Shown here: piece after piece, positions 13,093-22,293 of the stretch
Layout: every line of letters begins with the position of its first letter
How positions within the stretch are numbered: position 1 is the first letter of the stretch
Assembly (NCBI GenBank): GCA_026129905.1
Contig: JAHCHE010000005.1
Location: 62,001-126,000, forward strand
From: Bryobacteraceae bacterium
Lineage (GTDB): Bacteria > Acidobacteriota > Terriglobia > Bryobacterales > Bryobacteraceae
Reading direction: 5' to 3'
DNA: 64,000 nucleotides
Made by a program: the position numbers and the translations under genes
The notes under the pieces: generated by a model
Databases searched by the model: none
The model's input: only the letters and a program-made list of their open reading frames with translations
Told to the model about the DNA's origin: nothing

Positions 13093-15000
13093 TCATGCGC
13101 GAACGCTGCGCTTGATGTCGTCCTTGAGATTCAGGCTGCGGATCAAGCGGGAAAGATACGTCGGTTGGATGCCCAGCGCCTTGGCCGCCTCGTTGTGGCT
13201 GCCGCTGGCGTCGCGGATGGCCTGCACAATCAGCCGCCGCTTTTCCTGTTGGATGGCCTGGTGGAATCCGCTGGTAGCGCCGAGCTGAATCGGGACGCTC
13301 TCCACCAGCGTTTCGGGCAGGTCCTCGACCACGATGCGCTCCCCGACGCCGAGCACCACGGCCCGCTCGACGACGTTCTCCAGCTCGCGTACGTTGCCCG
13401 GCCAATCGTAATTCATGAGAATGGCCCGCACCTCGGCCGAGAGCCCGGGGTTCCGCCGGCCCGCCTGGCGGGCGAACTTGTCGGCGAAGTAGGCGGCCAG
13501 CAACGGGATATCCGCGCGCCGGTCGCGCAACGGAGGCATCTCCAAAGCCAGAACGTTGAGGCGGTAGTAAAGGTCGTCTCGAAACTGCCCTGCCTTGATT
13601 GCGGCCCGCAGGTCTCGGTTGGTAGCCGCGATCACCCGCACGTCCACCTTCACCGGCCTGGTCCCGCCGACCCGCTCGAATTCGCGCTCCTGGATCACGC
13701 GCAACAGCTTCACCTGGAGGTTGGAAGGCACCTCGCCGATCTCGTCGAGGAAAATGGTGCCGCCGTCGGCGACCTCAAACTTGCCTCTCTTCATGGCCAG
13801 AGCGCCGGTGAACGAGCCTTTCTCGTGGCCGAACAGCTCGCTCTCCAGCAGCGTTTCGGGCAGCGCGGCGCAGTTGATCGCGACGAAAGCACTGGCCGAG
13901 CGGTCGCTGTTGCGATGAATCGCCCGGGCCACCAGCTCTTTGCCCGTGCCGCTTTCCCCATAAAGGAGAACGGTGGATTCCGTCGGCGCAACCTTGGAGA
14001 TGAACCGGTACACCTCCTCCATGGCGGCCGACTCGCCCACCATGTCGTGATCGAGGTCGATTTCCTGGCGGAGTCGTCGATTTTCCGCGCTGAGTTGTTC
14101 GTAGTACCTGGCGTTCTCCAGCGCCAGCCCGGAAACCGAGGCAATCGCCGTCAGCAACTGCAGGTGCTCCTCGTCGAACTCCACGCGGGGGTCGCGCGAG
14201 ACCAGGTACAGAACGCCCAGCGGTTTCTCGGCGCCGGCTAGTGGGGCCACCAGGAGGGAAACGGCGCTGCCCGGGGTTCCCGCGGAACTCAGGTCGTTGC
14301 TCAGGATGGCGACGTCCTCGGAGAAGCTGCGCCGGACGAGTTCGCGGTGCGCCTCGATGGCCTCGGCTTTCGCGCCGCCACGTTTCCAGACGAACGTCCA
14401 GTCGGGCTCCTCGCCGCCCCGTTCGAACAACAGAATGGCGGCCTCAGCGGCGGGTATCGCGTCCAGGATGAGCTCCATCAGGTCCTTGGCCAGCGCGTCC
14501 ATCCCTCGGGTGGCGCGAACCGTGGTGCTGGCTTTCAGCATCGCTTTCAGGTTCAGAGCCAGACGGGCAAGCGGGATGGAACTGGAAGAAGCGGCTCGAT
14601 CCGGGTCCAGGTAGAGGGCTTTACGGCGGGGCAACTGGACGATGGTCCGAGTGGCCAAGCTGTCGCCTTGACTCAGGGTGGCGCTCGGCGTTGGTTCTTC
14701 GTCCTCCTGGCGCACGAGGTAAACGAAGCGGCAATTGCCGATGCGGATGTCGTCGCCATGTTCCAGAATCCGCTCGCGAACCGGAAGGCTGTTGACGAAC
14801 GTACCGTTCCGGCTGGCCCGGTCGACGAGTTCGTACTGGTGTTCTTCACGCTTTCGCAGAAGACAGTGCTGGCGGGACACGGACGGGTCGGCCACCGCGA
14901 TGGTGTTCGCGGAATGGCGTCCTACGGAAATAACGTCGGCAACGCAGGACAGGACTTCTCCCTGCAACGGGCCGTCCATCGCCACCAGCCTGGGGTTCAT
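13093..15000 (-). CDS. FHA-GAF sigma-54-dependent transcriptional activator
   Basis: A 635-residue regulator with an N-terminal FHA domain ([20 protein letters not shown] ... [10 protein letters not shown], about 20-100), a GAF domain (about 155-310), a sigma-54 AAA+ domain with Walker A GESGTGKE and Walker [12 protein letters not shown], the sigma-54 contact loop as GSFTGA (usual GAFTGA), and a Fis-type HTH at the C-terminus ([20 protein letters not shown]). FHA reads phosphothreonine, so a Ser/Thr kinase probably feeds it; none is in the window. No receiver domain is present. A likely promoter lies at 15066-15074 on the same strand. Targets are unknown. Confidence 0.93.
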
Positions 15001-16956: not shown

Positions 16957-19900
16957 ATGCATCAGCATAAGCTGGAGATTTCGCCTCACGCCCACGACGA
17001 GGGGAAGGAGCGATTGCGCTACTTCGGCTTCGCGGGCGTGGTGGGCCTGCTGCTGCTGTTGAACGTCGCGGGCGTCTTTACGAACGTCTTCGGCATCGAC
17101 ACGGCCGCCATTCTGGCCGTCGTGGCCGGCTACCGCACGTTCTACAACGCGATCTCGCTGCTGCTCGAGAAGGTGATTTCCGCCGATCTCGCCATCTGCA
17201 TCGCGGTGATCGCGGCGCTAGCGGCCGGCGAGTACCTGGCGGCCGCCGAAGCGATGTTCATCATGCTGGTGGGCGAGGGCCTGGAGGGCTACGCCTCTAA
17301 ACGGACGTCATCCGCCATCCAACGATTCGTCGAGCAGATGCCGCTCCGGGCGCGCCTGGTTCGCGAAGGGGAGGAAGTCGAAGTCTCCGCCGGAGCGCTG
17401 GTGGAAGGCGATGTGATTCTCGTGCGCGCCGGAGAGCGCATCCCGGCCGACGGCGCGATCGTACAGGGGGCGTCGGCCATCAACGAAAGCACGATCACCG
17501 GCGAGTCGCTGCCGCGCGACAAGGAAGCCGGAGACGAGGTCTTCTCGGGAACCCTGAACGGCCATGGACTGTTGCGCATCCGCGTCAGCCGGGCCGGTTC
17601 AGACACGACGCTCGCGCGGGTGGTCAAACTGGTCGAGGAATCCAGGAATCGTAAGGCGCCCGTCGAACGGCTCGCGGACCGGTACGCGCGGTACTTCCTG
17701 CCGGCGCTACTGATCGCCGCGGGCGCGACGTTCTACTTCACCCGGGACTGGCTGCGCACGGTGGCGGTGCTGATCATCGGGTGCCCCTGCGCGCTGATTC
17801 TCGCCACGCCGGCGGCGATGGTAGCGGCAATCGGAGGACTGGCGCGGCGCGGCATTCTCGTTCGAGGCGGCAGCGCCCTGCAAAAAGCCGCCAAAGTGGA
17901 CGCCATCGTGTTCGACAAGACCGGCACGGTAACCGAAGGCCGGTTCGAAATTATCGCCATCGTTGCCGCGCGGGCGGATGAAGCGGATGTGCTGCGGCTG
18001 GCCGCCGCGGCCGAGCGCGGCTCCGACCACGTACTGGCCCGGGTGATCGCAGAGGAAGCCCAGCGGCGCGGGCTGGCCGTGCCCGCAGGCGAGGACGCGC
18101 GCATTCTGGCCGGCCGCGGCGCGGAATGCTCGGTGGACGGGCGTATGCTGCGAGCGGGCAGCGCTGCGTTTCTGGAAGAACACGGGATCGGCGGCGCCAA
18201 GCCTCTGCTCGCGGAAGCGGACCGATTGGGCGCCACGGCGGTGCTGGTGGCCGAAGACACGCGGCTGGCCGGCGCGATCCTGCTGCGCGATCGCGTTCGC
18301 GACGGCGCCAGGGAGGCCGTCCACCAGCTCGAGCATCTTGAAATTACCCGGCAGGTGATGCTCACCGGCGACCGGCGGCGCGCCGCCGAGGCCATCGCGC
18401 GCGAGATTGGTATTCCCGCGGTGGAGGCGGAACTGCTCCCCGAGCAGAAGGTAGAGCGCGTCCGTCAGCTTATTTCCGAAGGCCGCGTGGTGGCGATGGC
18501 GGGCGACGGCGTCAACGACGCTCCGGCCCTGGCCGCGGCCCACGTCGGGATCGCGGTATCGGGCGCAAGCGACATCACGGCCGAAGCGGCGGATGTCGTC
18601 TACATGGGCCACTCGCTCGACAAGCTGCCGAAGCTGTTCGAAGTGAGCCGGCGGGCGGTGGGCATCGCGTGGCAGAACATCATCGTATTCGCGGGGATTG
18701 TGAACGCGCTGGCGGTGGGCTTCGCGTCGGCCGGCGCGATCGGACCGCTTGGGGCGGCCGTGTTTCACCAGGCGGCTTCGTTCCTGGTGATGGTGAATTC
18801 GCTGCGGCTGCTGCGCGTGGAGCGCCGGCGGTCCGCTTTCCGTCACTGGCTTCATCACAGGCTGGAGCACACGCCCCTGCCGGAGGCTTGGCAGCGCGTC
18901 AAGGCGTTCGCGGCGGGCGCGGATCCCAAGGACGCGTTCAACTATGTCGTCGAGCACCGGAGGCGGCTGGCAAAGCCGCTGGCGATCGGCGCCGGCGCGT
19001 TGTACGTGTTGAGCGGCGCGTACGTGCTGGGCCCGGATGAAGCGGGGGTCGTGGAACGCTTCGGAAGGAGGCTGCTGCCGATTCGCGAGCCGGGCCTTCA
19101 CTACAAGCTGCCGTGGCCGGTGGAGCGGCTGACGAGAATCCAGGCCTCGCGCGTCCGAACCATCGAGATCGGCTTCCGATCCGGGCAGACGCACGGAGAA
19201 GCCGAGCCGGCGGCGTACGAGTGGAACGTCCAGCACCGGTCCGGCCGGTTCCAGCGCATGCCGGAGGAGTCGCTGATGGTGAGCGGGGACATGAACATGC
19301 TCGAGGTCACCGCAACGGTGCATTACCGGCTGGCGCGGCCGGACGACTACCTGTTGCGCCTGCTGGATGGCGAGACCACGCTGCGCGCCGCGGCAGAGTC
19401 GGCGTTGCAGGCGGTGGTGACAACGACGCCGCTCGACGATGTTCTGACGGCGCGGCGCCGGGCGATCGAGCAGCGCACGGGCCAAGAGTTACAGACGCGG
19501 CTGGACAAGTACCGCGCGGGCATCGAGGTCCTCGGCGTACGGCTGTTGGACGTTCACCCGTCGCTGGAGGTGGTGGACGCGTTTCGCGACGTCTCCGGAG
19601 CATTCGAGGAAAAGAACCGGCTGGTGAACGAAGCGGAAGGCTACCGCAACGAACAGGTTGCGCTAGCGCGTGGCAACGCGGACGCGAACCGCGTTTCCGC
19701 CCGGGGCTATTCGCTGGGCCGGAAGAATCGCGCCGAAGGCGACTCGGGCCGCTTCATCCGGACGGAGGAGGCCTTCCGGCAGGGTCCGGGATTGAACGAG
19801 ACGCGAATGTACCTGGAAACCATGGAGGAGGCGTTGGCGGGCCGGCCGAAGATGATCGTGGATTCGAAAGGCCGGAGGCGCCTGGCGCTGATGGACGACG

Positions 19901-19962
19901 GCCTCGGCTTTCTGCCGCTGGCGATGGAGCCGCCGGCGCCGCGAGGACGGGAGCAGCAATGA
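16957..19962 (+). CDS. P1B-type heavy-metal ATPase fused to an HflK-like SPFH domain
   Basis: A 1001-residue two-part membrane protein. Residues 1 to about 625 form a P1B ATPase without an N-terminal HMA domain but with a His-rich start (MHQHKLEISPHAHDEG): actuator TGES 181-184, metal-site CPC 276-278, phosphorylation motif DKTGT from Asp320, hinge GDGVNDAP 516-523, and last membrane helix HQAASFLVMVNSLRLL, which lacks the usual Cu motif MxxSS. Then a linker, one more membrane segment (about 675-692) and an SPFH/HflK-like domain starting GPDEAGVVERFGRRLLPIREPGLHYKLPWPVER. One uninterrupted frame crosses the junction. The stop overlaps the HflC-like start (ATGA). Metal specificity and direction are not deducible; no FtsH gene is near. 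Confidence 0.93.
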   Translation: MHQHKLEISPHAHDEGKERLRYFGFAGVVGLLLLLNVAGVFTNVFGIDTAAILAVVAGYRTFYNAISLLLEKVISADLAICIAVIAALAAGEYLAAAEAMFIMLVGEGLEGYASKRTSSAIQRFVEQMPLRARLVREGEEVEVSAGALVEGDVILVRAGERIPADGAIVQGASAINESTITGESLPRDKEAGDEVFSGTLNGHGLLRIRVSRAGSDTTLARVVKLVEESRNRKAPVERLADRYARYFLPALLIAAGATFYFTRDWLRTVAVLIIGCPCALILATPAAMVAAIGGLARRGILVRGGSALQKAAKVDAIVFDKTGTVTEGRFEIIAIVAARADEADVLRLAAAAERGSDHVLARVIAEEAQRRGLAVPAGEDARILAGRGAECSVDGRMLRAGSAAFLEEHGIGGAKPLLAEADRLGATAVLVAEDTRLAGAILLRDRVRDGAREAVHQLEHLEITRQVMLTGDRRRAAEAIAREIGIPAVEAELLPEQKVERVRQLISEGRVVAMAGDGVNDAPALAAAHVGIAVSGASDITAEAADVVYMGHSLDKLPKLFEVSRRAVGIAWQNIIVFAGIVNALAVGFASAGAIGPLGAAVFHQAASFLVMVNSLRLLRVERRRSAFRHWLHHRLEHTPLPEAWQRVKAFAAGADPKDAFNYVVEHRRRLAKPLAIGAGALYVLSGAYVLGPDEAGVVERFGRRLLPIREPGLHYKLPWPVERLTRIQASRVRTIEIGFRSGQTHGEAEPAAYEWNVQHRSGRFQRMPEESLMVSGDMNMLEVTATVHYRLARPDDYLLRLLDGETTLRAAAESALQAVVTTTPLDDVLTARRRAIEQRTGQELQTRLDKYRAGIEVLGVRLLDVHPSLEVVDAFRDVSGAFEEKNRLVNEAEGYRNEQVALARGNADANRVSARGYSLGRKNRAEGDSGRFIRTEEAFRQGPGLNETRMYLETMEEALAGRPKMIVDSKGRRRLALMDDGLGFLPLAMEPPAPRGREQQ

Positions 19963-20852
19963 GATTTGAGAAGTACAGGAAATACTATCCGGCAGCCGCA
20001 ATTGTGGCCGCGCTGCTATTGGCGTGGCTGACTTTCTACACCGTCCGGGAGACGGAGTTCGTTCTGGTGACGCAATTCGGCGAGCCGCTGTACACCGTCT
20101 CCGACGCCGGCCTTCACGCCAAGTGGTTTTTCCAGCAGGCCAGCTATTTCGACCGGCGGCTGCGCATTTACAATCCGCGTCCGAGCGAGTTCCTCACGCG
20201 CGACAAAAAAAACCTGGTAATCGAATCGTACGCCGCCTGGCGCATCGAAGACCCGAAGCGGTTCGTGCAAAGCGTTGGCGATCCCGCGGCCGCCGAGATG
20301 CGCCTGCATGACATTATCTGGTCGTCGCTGTCGGCTTCGGTGGGCAACCAGGATCTGGACGCGATGATCGCCGCATCCGCCGAGGGCGTGAAGACGGGCG
20401 ACCTGCTGGACAGCCTGACCGAGATGACCGACCGCGCCTCTCTGGAACGCTACGGCATCCGCGTGGTGGACGTGCGCATCAAGCGGCTGAACCTCCCCGA
20501 GCAAAACAAGCAGAGCGTATATGCGCGCATGCGGGCCGAACGCGAGCGCATCGCGCGCCAGTACCGCGCAGAGGGCGAGGAGGAGGCGCTCCGCATCCGC
20601 GCGGACGCCGACCGGCAAAAGGAAGAACTGCTTTCCGCCGCGTACAAGGAGGCCGAGAAAGTGAAGGGCGAGGGCGACGCCGAATCGACCCGCATCTACA
20701 GCCAGGCGTATGCACGCAATCCGCGTTTGTACAAATTGCTGCGAACGCTGGAATCGTACAAGAGGATTTTCAACGACAACACCACCGCTATTCTCAGCTC
20801 CGATTCGGAACTGCTGAAGGTGATGATGCAGGGAGAACGCGGCGCGCAATGA
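19959..20852 (+). CDS. HflC-like SPFH-domain membrane protein
   Basis: A 297-residue protein with one N-terminal membrane segment (AAAIVAALLLAWLTFYTV) and an SPFH domain of HflC character: ETEFVLVTQFGEPLYTVSDAGLH, FLTRDKKNLVIESYAAWRI, YGIRVVDVRIKRLNLPEQNKQSVYARMRAER, followed by a long charged coiled-coil (RIARQYRAEGEEEALRI...). HflC with HflK encloses and modulates the FtsH protease in other bacteria. The ATG at 19959 overlaps the ATPase-HflK fusion stop; the longer frame upstream lies inside that gene and is a shadow. Its own stop overlaps the next start (ATGA at 20849-20852). Confidence 0.92.
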   Translation: MRFEKYRKYYPAAAIVAALLLAWLTFYTVRETEFVLVTQFGEPLYTVSDAGLHAKWFFQQASYFDRRLRIYNPRPSEFLTRDKKNLVIESYAAWRIEDPKRFVQSVGDPAAAEMRLHDIIWSSLSASVGNQDLDAMIAASAEGVKTGDLLDSLTEMTDRASLERYGIRVVDVRIKRLNLPEQNKQSVYARMRAERERIARQYRAEGEEEALRIRADADRQKEELLSAAYKEAEKVKGEGDAESTRIYSQAYARNPRLYKLLRTLESYKRIFNDNTTAILSSDSELLKVMMQGERGAQ

Positions 20853-21817
20853 GCCTGATCGAGCTAGAGCGGCCGCGTCCGCGAGAAAAGGAATCGACGC
20901 CGCCCGAACCGTGGCCGCTGCCGCGAAAGTTCGCGGCGATTCTGCTGGGACTGTGGCTGTTGAGTGGCGTCTACATTGTGGCCGCGGACCAGCAGGCGGT
21001 AGTGACGCGGTTCGGCAAGGTAGTGGAACCGCGCGTGGCGCCGGGCATCCACCTGTCGCTCCCGTGGCCGATCGACCGGGTTGTGAAGTTGAAGGCGCAG
21101 CAACTGCGGCGCCTGGTGATCGGCGGCGACGTCGCCGACGTTCTGGTCGGGCGGTCCGATCCGGCTGCGTCGCAGTTCCTCACCGGAGACCAGAACCTGA
21201 TCCACATGCGGGTGGTTGTGCAGTACTCGGTGGGCGTTCCGGCCGACTACCTTTTCCGCGCGGTGGACGTGGCGCGCGCCGTGGCGGCCGCAGTGGAGGC
21301 GGAACTGGCTCACCGGGTGGCCAATCGCGGCGTCGATGCGGTGCTCACCACGGAGAAGGCGCTAATACAGGAAGACGTGCGGGGCGCGGCGCAGAAACTC
21401 ATGGACGACTACGGCGTAGGGGTGGCTCTGGCGAGCGTCAACATCGAGAGCGTCGTTCCGCCGCCGGAAGCGTCCGACGCGTTTCGCGACGTGGCGGGGG
21501 CGCGAGCGGATTCGGCCCGCATCGTCAACCAGGCGCTCGGTTACGCCAACGACCTGATCCCGCGCGCTCGCGGCGAGGCGCAGCAGTTGCGCGAAGCCGC
21601 CGAAGCGTACCGCCTCCGCAAGATCAACCAGGCGCAGGGCGACGCGGCGCGCTTCACGCAGGTGGCCGCCGAGTATGCAAAGGCGAGCGACGTGAACGGC
21701 CACCGGTTGTACGTCGAGGCCATGGAGCAAGTGTTGCCGAAGATCCGCAAGCTGATCATTGACAAGAGCGGCAACCTGGATCTGACGATCATCCGGCGGG
21801 GCGCGGGCGAAGAATGA
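20849..21817 (+). CDS. Second HflK-like SPFH-domain membrane protein
   Basis: A 322-residue protein: Pro-rich cytoplasmic start, one membrane segment (FAAILLGLWLLSGVYIVAA, about 28-46), then an SPFH domain (DQQAVVTRFGKVVEPRVAPG ... LPWPIDRVVKLK; VDAVLTTEKALIQEDV; VNIESVVPPPEASDAFRDV) and a C-terminal helical rod. PEASDAFRDV corresponds to HPSLEVVDAFRDV in the fusion protein, so the two are HflK-type paralogues. It has ATGA overlaps with the gene on each side. Three SPFH domains in one operon suggest a hetero-oligomeric membrane cage. Confidence 0.92.
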   Translation: MSLIELERPRPREKESTPPEPWPLPRKFAAILLGLWLLSGVYIVAADQQAVVTRFGKVVEPRVAPGIHLSLPWPIDRVVKLKAQQLRRLVIGGDVADVLVGRSDPAASQFLTGDQNLIHMRVVVQYSVGVPADYLFRAVDVARAVAAAVEAELAHRVANRGVDAVLTTEKALIQEDVRGAAQKLMDDYGVGVALASVNIESVVPPPEASDAFRDVAGARADSARIVNQALGYANDLIPRARGEAQQLREAAEAYRLRKINQAQGDAARFTQVAAEYAKASDVNGHRLYVEAMEQVLPKIRKLIIDKSGNLDLTIIRRGAGEE

Positions 21818-22293
21818 CCCGGGCCGGGCGGGCACGGGTCGTGACGCTCGCCGTCCTCGCGACGCTGGCCGGCGTGGTCGCGCTGCGTCAATTGGGCTGG
21901 CGGCCGGCGGGCGAACGTCGAGGGGAATCTTCGCCCCAGGACGTCGTATACGGCATGCTGGAAGCCGCGCGGGGCGGCGATGTCGGGCGGTATCTTTCGT
22001 ACTATTCGGACGAATTGCGGACGGCGCTGAAACGTGCCGCCGCCGAAGCGTCGCGCAACGACTTTGCGCGTTATCTTCGGGAAAGCCATGCGCCGATCAA
22101 AGGCATCGCCATTACCGAGCCCGAGACGCTCTCGGCGGACGAAGCGAGCGTGCGCGTGGAATTCGTCTATAAGGACCGCACCGAAGCGCAGACGATGCGG
22201 CTGCGGCGGATCGGCGGCGTCTGGCGGATTGCGCAGCTCGATCCGGCGGCGCGCGCCGAGACCGTGGTTCCGTACGGCGCGCCGGTGCAGTAG
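21814..22293 (+). CDS. Membrane-anchored NTF2-like (DUF4878-like) protein
   Basis: A 159-residue protein with an uncleaved-looking N-terminal anchor (RVVTLAVLATLAGVVAL) and an extracytoplasmic NTF2-like domain: DVVYGMLEAARGGDVGRYLSYYSDELRTAL, a sheet segment VRVEFVYKDRTEAQTMRL and RRIGGVWRIAQLD. The pattern resembles DUF4878/SnoaL-type lumazine-fold domains. It overlaps the upstream stop by four bases and closes the operon, so it is probably a periplasmic partner of the SPFH/ATPase assembly. This role is inferred only from context. Confidence 0.8.
   Translation: MTRAGRARVVTLAVLATLAGVVALRQLGWRPAGERRGESSPQDVVYGMLEAARGGDVGRYLSYYSDELRTALKRAAAEASRNDFARYLRESHAPIKGIAITEPETLSADEASVRVEFVYKDRTEAQTMRLRRIGGVWRIAQLDPAARAETVVPYGAPVQ

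Follow-up and report, generated by a model that had tools for sequence, protein, structure and literature searches.

A P1B-type ATPase fused to HflK in a conserved HflK/HflC operon suggests a transporter-SPFH complex

Can a membrane pump be tied by its own gene to an SPFH enclosure in which it works? This question is raised by a four-gene operon in a 64,000-nucleotide stretch of DNA from a Bryobacteraceae bacterium (assembly GCA_026129905.1, contig JAHCHE010000005.1, positions 62,001 to 126,000 of the forward strand), which is called the window here. The first gene encodes a P1B-type ATPase that continues in frame into an HflK subunit, and the following genes encode HflC, a second HflK and a small NTF2-like protein. 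We describe the fusion, the operon and its conservation, the single-clade origin of the fused ATPases and the predicted topology. From these we infer, with somewhat better than even confidence, a transporter-SPFH complex whose assembly, enclosure and metal export are read from genes and a model, and in which the pump would be built into an HflK/HflC-type enclosure.

The fusion gene (16957..19962, + strand) encodes a protein of 1001 residues, which was assigned by profile matches and a structural model. The NCBIfam profile TIGR01525 for heavy-metal P-type ATPases matched residues 77-618 with 546 bits (cut-off 346), and the HflK profile TIGR01933 matched residues 689-977 with 196 bits (cut-off 159.4). 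The Pfam matches to E1-E2_ATPase, Hydrolase and Band_7 agreed with this. The P1B-ATPase part (residues 18-620; 17008..18816, +) was recognised by its profile, its motifs and a fold match to CopA and ZntA. It contains TGES at 181-184, CPC at 276-278, DKTGT at 320-324, GDGVNDAP at 516-523, Asn583 and His604-Gln605, and eight transmembrane (TM) helices are predicted within residues 1-620. A linker that is predicted to be cytosolic and contains RHWLHHRLEH (residues 621-667; 18817..18957, +) leads to the TM helix of the HflK part, termed HflK1 (18958..19896, +). HflK1 has the order of an HflK protein, with an N-terminal TM helix (TM9, 668-692), an SPFH domain (689-895) and a coiled coil (870-960), and carries the subunit-specific insert AYEWNVQH at residues 753-760. 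An earlier note on this DNA had read a complete P1B-ATPase followed by HflK in one frame, and the coordinates, motifs and profile matches agree with that reading. The same note had described a pump with a His-rich start, lacking a heavy-metal-associated (HMA) domain and with HQxxS instead of the Cu-type MxxSS in the last pump helix. Indeed, no HMA domain was found by Pfam in the fusion protein, four histidines lie within the first 20 residues, and TM8 reads FHQAASFLVM.

The three genes 3' of the fusion are chained to it and to each other by ATGA overlaps at 19959, 20849 and 21814. HflC (19959..20852, +; 297 residues) matched TIGR01932 with 217 bits against a cut-off of 134.4, and the second HflK, HflK2 (20849..21817, +; 322 residues), matched TIGR01933 with 217 bits and has no YEWNxxH insert. 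The last gene (21814..22293, +) encodes 159 residues with an N-terminal membrane anchor. Its product gave sequence matches below the cut-off only (Rv0361_Cterm with 28 of the 37 bits needed; SnoaL_3), and its model (predicted local distance difference test score, pLDDT, 92.7; 42 sequences) showed a membrane helix at 3-26 and an NTF2-like fold. Foldseek matched the model to NTF2-like and ketosteroid isomerase folds with E values of about 5e-5 to 1e-3, so that both model and search show the cone-like alpha+beta fold with a curved sheet of the NTF2-like/SnoaL superfamily. Against a viral fold library no match below E 0.001 was obtained. Overlaps, profiles and model thus bear out the earlier description of an ATGA-chained HflC, a second HflK and a small anchored protein.

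The earlier note had proposed a search for the fusion and for co-conservation of the four genes in other genomes, and both were found in several phyla. A profile scan of named genomes returned at least 80 loci, and the following counts of fused loci are among the matches listed. At least 74 named loci carry the in-frame fusion, and 6 further loci are canonical HflK-HflC pairs without an ATPase. The fused loci come from Bryobacterales, Thermoanaerobaculia/Holophagales, group 18 and one Aminicenantes metagenome-assembled genome (MAG), from Armatimonadota, Zipacnadia, Verrucomicrobiota, Lentisphaeria and Planctomycetota, and from one Pseudomonadota MAG and one unclassified single-cell genome. Where the contig was long enough, the fusion was followed by HflC in 69 of 70 loci, by HflK2 in all 65 and by the NTF2-like gene in 55 of 60. 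TGES, CPC, DKTGT and GDGVNDAP were practically invariant in 46 fusion homologues, and the linker is far longer and His-rich in the homologues L044 and L045. Full-length fusions occurred in about 20 of the 396 genomes scanned from the host phylum, spread over four families. Among 201 Armatimonadota genomes (the phylum of locus L131), 14 had matches, 13 of which cover the end of the ATPase and HflK. Copies of the bryobacterial type are also present in L080, L101 and L102/L103, which bear the titles Acidimicrobiia, Nevskia soli and Cytophagales; these contigs were probably binned or labelled wrongly. L102 and L103 seem to be the same in both architecture and coordinates.

The same set of genes also exists unfused. 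Verrucomicrobiota and Lentisphaeria genomes with the fusion also hold a second gene set in the order HflK*, HflC, HflK and a stand-alone P1B-ATPase. HflK* has 615-677 residues, with an extra membrane domain of about 300 residues ahead of the HflK part, for which no Pfam match above the cut-off was found. The stand-alone ATPase has 636-647 residues and matched TIGR01525 above the cut-off. With an HflK* profile, 106 of 294 Planctomycetota genomes (the phylum of genome G425) were matched at E <= 1e-30, about 65 of them including the extra membrane domain according to a table count and the others only in SPFH. In Verrucomicrobiota (the phylum of G427), 117 of 289 genomes were matched at E <= 1e-45. 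Of 20 planctomycete stretches that were examined, one (L214) is fused and 15 of the other 19 have the order HflK*-HflC-HflK-ATPase, including L198, whose ATPase runs off the end of the contig, and two stretches without a clear extra membrane domain, L212 and L215. The exceptions are L208 with the ATPase on the other side, L197 and L216, which show no ATPase, and L213 with only HflK*. Split clusters are common in Planctomycetota and Verrucomicrobiota and were noted at L169-L171, L198-L212 and L215. In a further locus (L172, G432:C101), an HflK-HflC-HflK triad was seen whose first HflK is truncated at the contig end. Neighbouring genes were clustered across the loci with the operon masked, and those of ATP-binding cassette (ABC) type were named by reading their sequences, not by a family search. 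Usually, an ABC-2-type permease lies upstream of the split operons and an ABC ATPase, a permease and another membrane protein lie downstream. Since the same gene set is found fused and unfused, a physical association of pump and SPFH proteins is more likely than from the fusion alone.

In a tree of the ATPases, the 21 fused sequences formed one clade with a Shimodaira-Hasegawa-like approximate likelihood ratio (SH-aLRT) support of 99 and the 18 split sequences another one with a support of 100. A sister grouping of the two clades was neither supported nor rejected (approximately unbiased, AU, test, p 0.35). In the HflK tree, HflK1, HflK2, HflK*, the split second HflK and the canonical HflK each formed one group. 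When HflK1 and HflK* were held together, the tree was 8.2 log units above the free search (AU p 0.74), so this grouping is compatible with the sequences, not proven by them. Both subunits share an insert, YEWNxxH / LWxxxH, found as AYEWNVQH, ILWNERH or LLWGEKH, which is absent from canonical HflK and mostly missing from the second HflK. In the split copy L199, a HGHSHGHSHGHNH tract adjoins the HflK* insert region; the His-rich tract of this protein, HRHSHGHSHGHSHGHNH, lies beside an LLYTKDH motif in the presumed periplasmic part of the SPFH subunit. The HflC proteins of the fused operons stood nearer to the canonical ones than to those of the split operons; that all subunits go back to one origin is therefore not demonstrated. 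Judging from the sequences, the fused and the split architectures appear at least functionally parallel, and they are possibly homologous as whole units.

Which ion might be pumped? The best family and sequence matches of the pump were P1B metal ATPases, and CopA and ZntA were the best fold matches of its model. The P1B-1 (Cu+) signature consists of CPC, YN in TM7 and MxxSS in TM8, and the P1B-2 (Zn/Cd/Pb) signature of CPC, Lys in TM7 and DxG in TM8 (PMC4932525). When the fused pumps were aligned with other P1B ATPases, CPC, Asn583, His604 and Gln605 were found in 21 of 21 sampled proteins. His604 lies in a TM8 column that has Met in Cu-type and Asp in Zn-type proteins, and Asn583 in a column where Zn-type proteins have Lys; the P1B-1 and P1B-2 signatures are therefore absent. 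P1B-1 was rejected on His604-Gln605 at the Met position, and TIGR01511 was passed narrowly (422 against a cut-off of 397). P1B-2 was rejected on Asn583 and His604, despite a TIGR01512 score of 462 against 313. P1B-4 ATPases are marked by an SPC motif and HEGxT in TM8, and this class was rejected since the fused pumps have CPC and HQ instead. The position of His604 is common to L038, an SPC/HEGST ATPase. As far as sequence can tell, the combination of CPC, Asn583 and His604-Gln605 fits none of the P1B classes tested. The earlier note had called the ion unclear, and this holds, as the TM7 and TM8 residues do not allow the assignment of a known class.

The AlphaFold model of the fusion protein (monomer, pLDDT 80) showed the P1B helices, a helical linker (627-666), a TM helix (668-685), the SPFH domain (688-868) and a coiled coil reaching to about 960. 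The eight helices of P1B ATPases leave the C-terminus in the cytosol. In the model, TM9 is predicted to carry the SPFH domain to the periplasm, which is the side of metal release and also the side where HflK/C resides (PMC2636767; PMC12005517). With eight pump helices and TM9, the pump would replace the cytosolic N-terminal tail of HflK and leave the topology of HflK unaltered. In E. coli, FtsH is surrounded by 24 alternating HflK and HflC subunits in a closed or nautilus-like assembly (PMC12048511), and stomatin cages enclose the transporters AQP1 and UT-B in erythrocytes (PMC12407830). Taken together with these assemblies, the predicted topology points to a pump-bearing HflK/C enclosure. HflK1, HflC and HflK2 would together form a ring or cage that stands on the inner membrane at its periplasmic side, as HflK/HflC does around FtsH, and each HflK1 subunit would bring its own P1B pump as its cytosolic and membrane-embedded N-terminal part. 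The pump would eject a transition-metal ion to the periplasm at the base of the enclosure, so that the metal would be released into or next to a confined space and not into the open periplasm. The NTF2-like protein would act as a membrane-anchored accessory within the same space.

What could such a complex be used for? Immediately upstream of the fusion, several distant lineages have a gene on the same strand for a large protein with a DUF3604 / CehA-McbA-like (PHP-type) metallohydrolase domain; judging from its N-terminus, this protein is apparently secreted. The gene was found in 14 of the 60 loci with enough upstream DNA. It lies within 30 bases of the fusion in L083, L110, L111, L128, L137 and L138, whereas eight thermoanaerobacular loci have it about 0.8-1.0 kb upstream; the planctomycete fused copy L214 also abuts it. 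The coordinates are L083:3250-6303, L110:1200-4145, L128:2393-5323, L137:2230-5139, L138:219-1253, L140:2597-5476 and L214:8252-8623. Copper export pumps that metallate periplasmic enzymes are known (PMC3817396). As a hypothesis and with a weaker inference than for the complex itself, the most likely use would be the metallation of exported metalloproteins rather than bulk detoxification. Still more broadly, we tentatively propose a widespread unit of a pump and a hetero-oligomeric HflK/HflC assembly that keeps a private periplasmic compartment for metal, for example for loading exported metalloenzymes. With the same reserve, this unit might be fused in Acidobacteriota and Armatimonadota and split and ABC-linked in Planctomycetota and Verrucomicrobiota.

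Several points weigh against this reading. The model is of a monomer, and its distal coiled coil is predicted with low confidence. If each HflK1 carries a pump, there may be too little room in a cage; a ring or a partial shell is equally possible. The window contains no gene for this metallohydrolase, and the one homologue of the genome is unlinked (contig C5:196976-199696). Not all proteins of the split clade retain CPC, with C276 found in 15 and C278 in 13 of the 18. This weakens the case for metal transport there, and metal transport may not be universal across the split relatives. The degraded forms IPC, CPG, CPS and TPC were seen in L202, L203, L208, L169/L170 and other split ATPases, and the substrate of some of these P1B-like pumps may be a different one.

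Other explanations were weighed on the same evidence. An error of assembly or a single accidental joining of genes is hardly credible as the source of the fusion. The frame is interrupted in three homologous loci (L098, L110 and L129), but inside the ATPase or inside HflK and never at the junction. The earlier note had held that the fusion claim would fail if the homologues were always separate genes with a stop between them; no gene boundary was found at the junction in any of the at least 74 named fused loci, which span several phyla, and all sampled fused ATPases form one clade. With these homologous fusions, an artefact was rejected. The ATPase could also carry a non-metal substrate or be a membrane-remodelling motor, with the SPFH part organising lipid. 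The degraded CPC of part of the split clade, the lack of any cytosolic HMA domain in the fused proteins and the ABC-2-type transporter genes adjoining the split operons would fit this idea, but the residues at the P1B metal-ligand positions (CPC, Asn583 and His604) are invariant in the fused pumps, all best matches are P1B metal ATPases and there are His-rich tracts at the N-terminus and in the linker. We regard it as quite improbable.

A role in the normal quality control by FtsH-HflKC, in which HflK has gained a pump that tunes or senses metal for the zinc protease FtsH, is somewhat easier to imagine, though unlikely. HflC was found above the cut-off in only 11 of 31 genomes of the host family, the same ones that have the fusion and a second HflK, with the fusion always upstream, a pattern that also speaks for the pump-bearing enclosure. 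Since the operon holds the only HflK/HflC genes of the host family and FtsH is present in the genome, FtsH may take part in the complex in Bryobacteraceae; furthermore, HflC and HflK2 are near the canonical families, and HflK2 groups with canonical HflK (support 84). However, as the earlier note had stated, the operon contains no FtsH gene. The single FtsH gene of the genome lies on another contig, and FtsH was not seen as a conserved neighbour of the other operons. In addition, a canonical HflKC is kept separately from the pump operon in genomes such as G427, G435, G436 and G437, the conserved partner in the split form is the P1B-ATPase and not FtsH, and HflK1 and HflK* have their own insert. 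Alternatively, the operon might encode a metal-efflux detoxification platform, in which the SPFH proteins only cluster the pumps, as PacL1 does for CtpC, and form no closed compartment. Mycobacterial P-ATPase efflux platforms with a flotillin-like scaffold are known (PMC9374683), but neither a metal-responsive regulator nor another resistance gene was seen among the neighbours of the operon, and the conservation of three different HflK/C subunits goes beyond the need of clustering. We therefore consider pure efflux rather unlikely and prefer the pump-bearing enclosure.

In the near surroundings of the operon, no sigma-70-like promoter was found between 16000 and 23500, and terminator-like sites in this region were under the chance level. 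The Rfam scan of the window gave no match. A few kb upstream, a FHA-GAF-sigma-54 activator protein is encoded at 13093-15000 on the minus strand.

What SPFH complexes do in bacteria, and whether they act as working compartments, are open questions. In this operon the gene itself specifies the cargo, which makes the question directly testable, since the fused pump must sit at the enclosure. If the reading is true, a microcompartment can confine the ions that a pump releases, and a cluster present in about a fifth to two fifths of the sampled planctomycete and verrucomicrobial genomes gains a candidate function. Metallating P1B pumps (PMC3817396) and transporter-enclosing SPFH cages (PMC12407830) are known separately, and each half of the fusion protein is a member of a known family; the combined system appears to be undescribed. 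The open-access literature searched, which lacks most subscription journals, yielded no account of HflK fused to or clustered with a P-type ATPase, and P-type ATPases are absent from the 2009 SPFH survey (PMC2636767). In many uncultured bacteria, the pump and the scaffold subunit are one continuous protein encoded next to the other subunits, which hints that a transporter may be given a membrane compartment of its own in a manner not yet described.

The nearest known system is FtsH-HflK/HflC of E. coli, where HflK and HflC form an alternating hetero-oligomeric, periplasmic SPFH enclosure with a membrane ATPase (PMC12005517, PMC12048511), a likeness that is here drawn from genes. In the new operon, a P-type pump fused to HflK takes the place of the AAA protease FtsH, and there are two HflK genes and an NTF2-like gene. 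With the P1B ATPases CopA, ZntA and CtpC, the pump shares all P-type motifs, CPC and the eight predicted helices, but it lacks HMA, is fused to HflK at its C-terminus and has Asn583 and His604-Gln605 instead of the YN..MxxSS of P1B-1 or the K..DxG of P1B-2. Mycobacterial PacL1-CtpC is similar in that a P1B pump is co-encoded with and clustered by a scaffold (PMC9374683). PacL scaffolds are small membrane proteins with Glu/Ala repeats and a metal-binding tail, encoded next to the pump. PacL1 is not an SPFH protein and forms foci without flotillin, whereas the scaffold here is HflK/HflC and covalently joined to the pump; no PacL (DUF1490) gene was found in the operon, whose four proteins match other families. 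Stomatin cages, finally, also place an SPFH oligomer around a transporter (PMC12407830), which in our case is proposed from genes and a model. Their contact is non-covalent and their cargo consists of passive channels, whereas the operon described here joins an active pump to an SPFH subunit that is predicted to be periplasmic.

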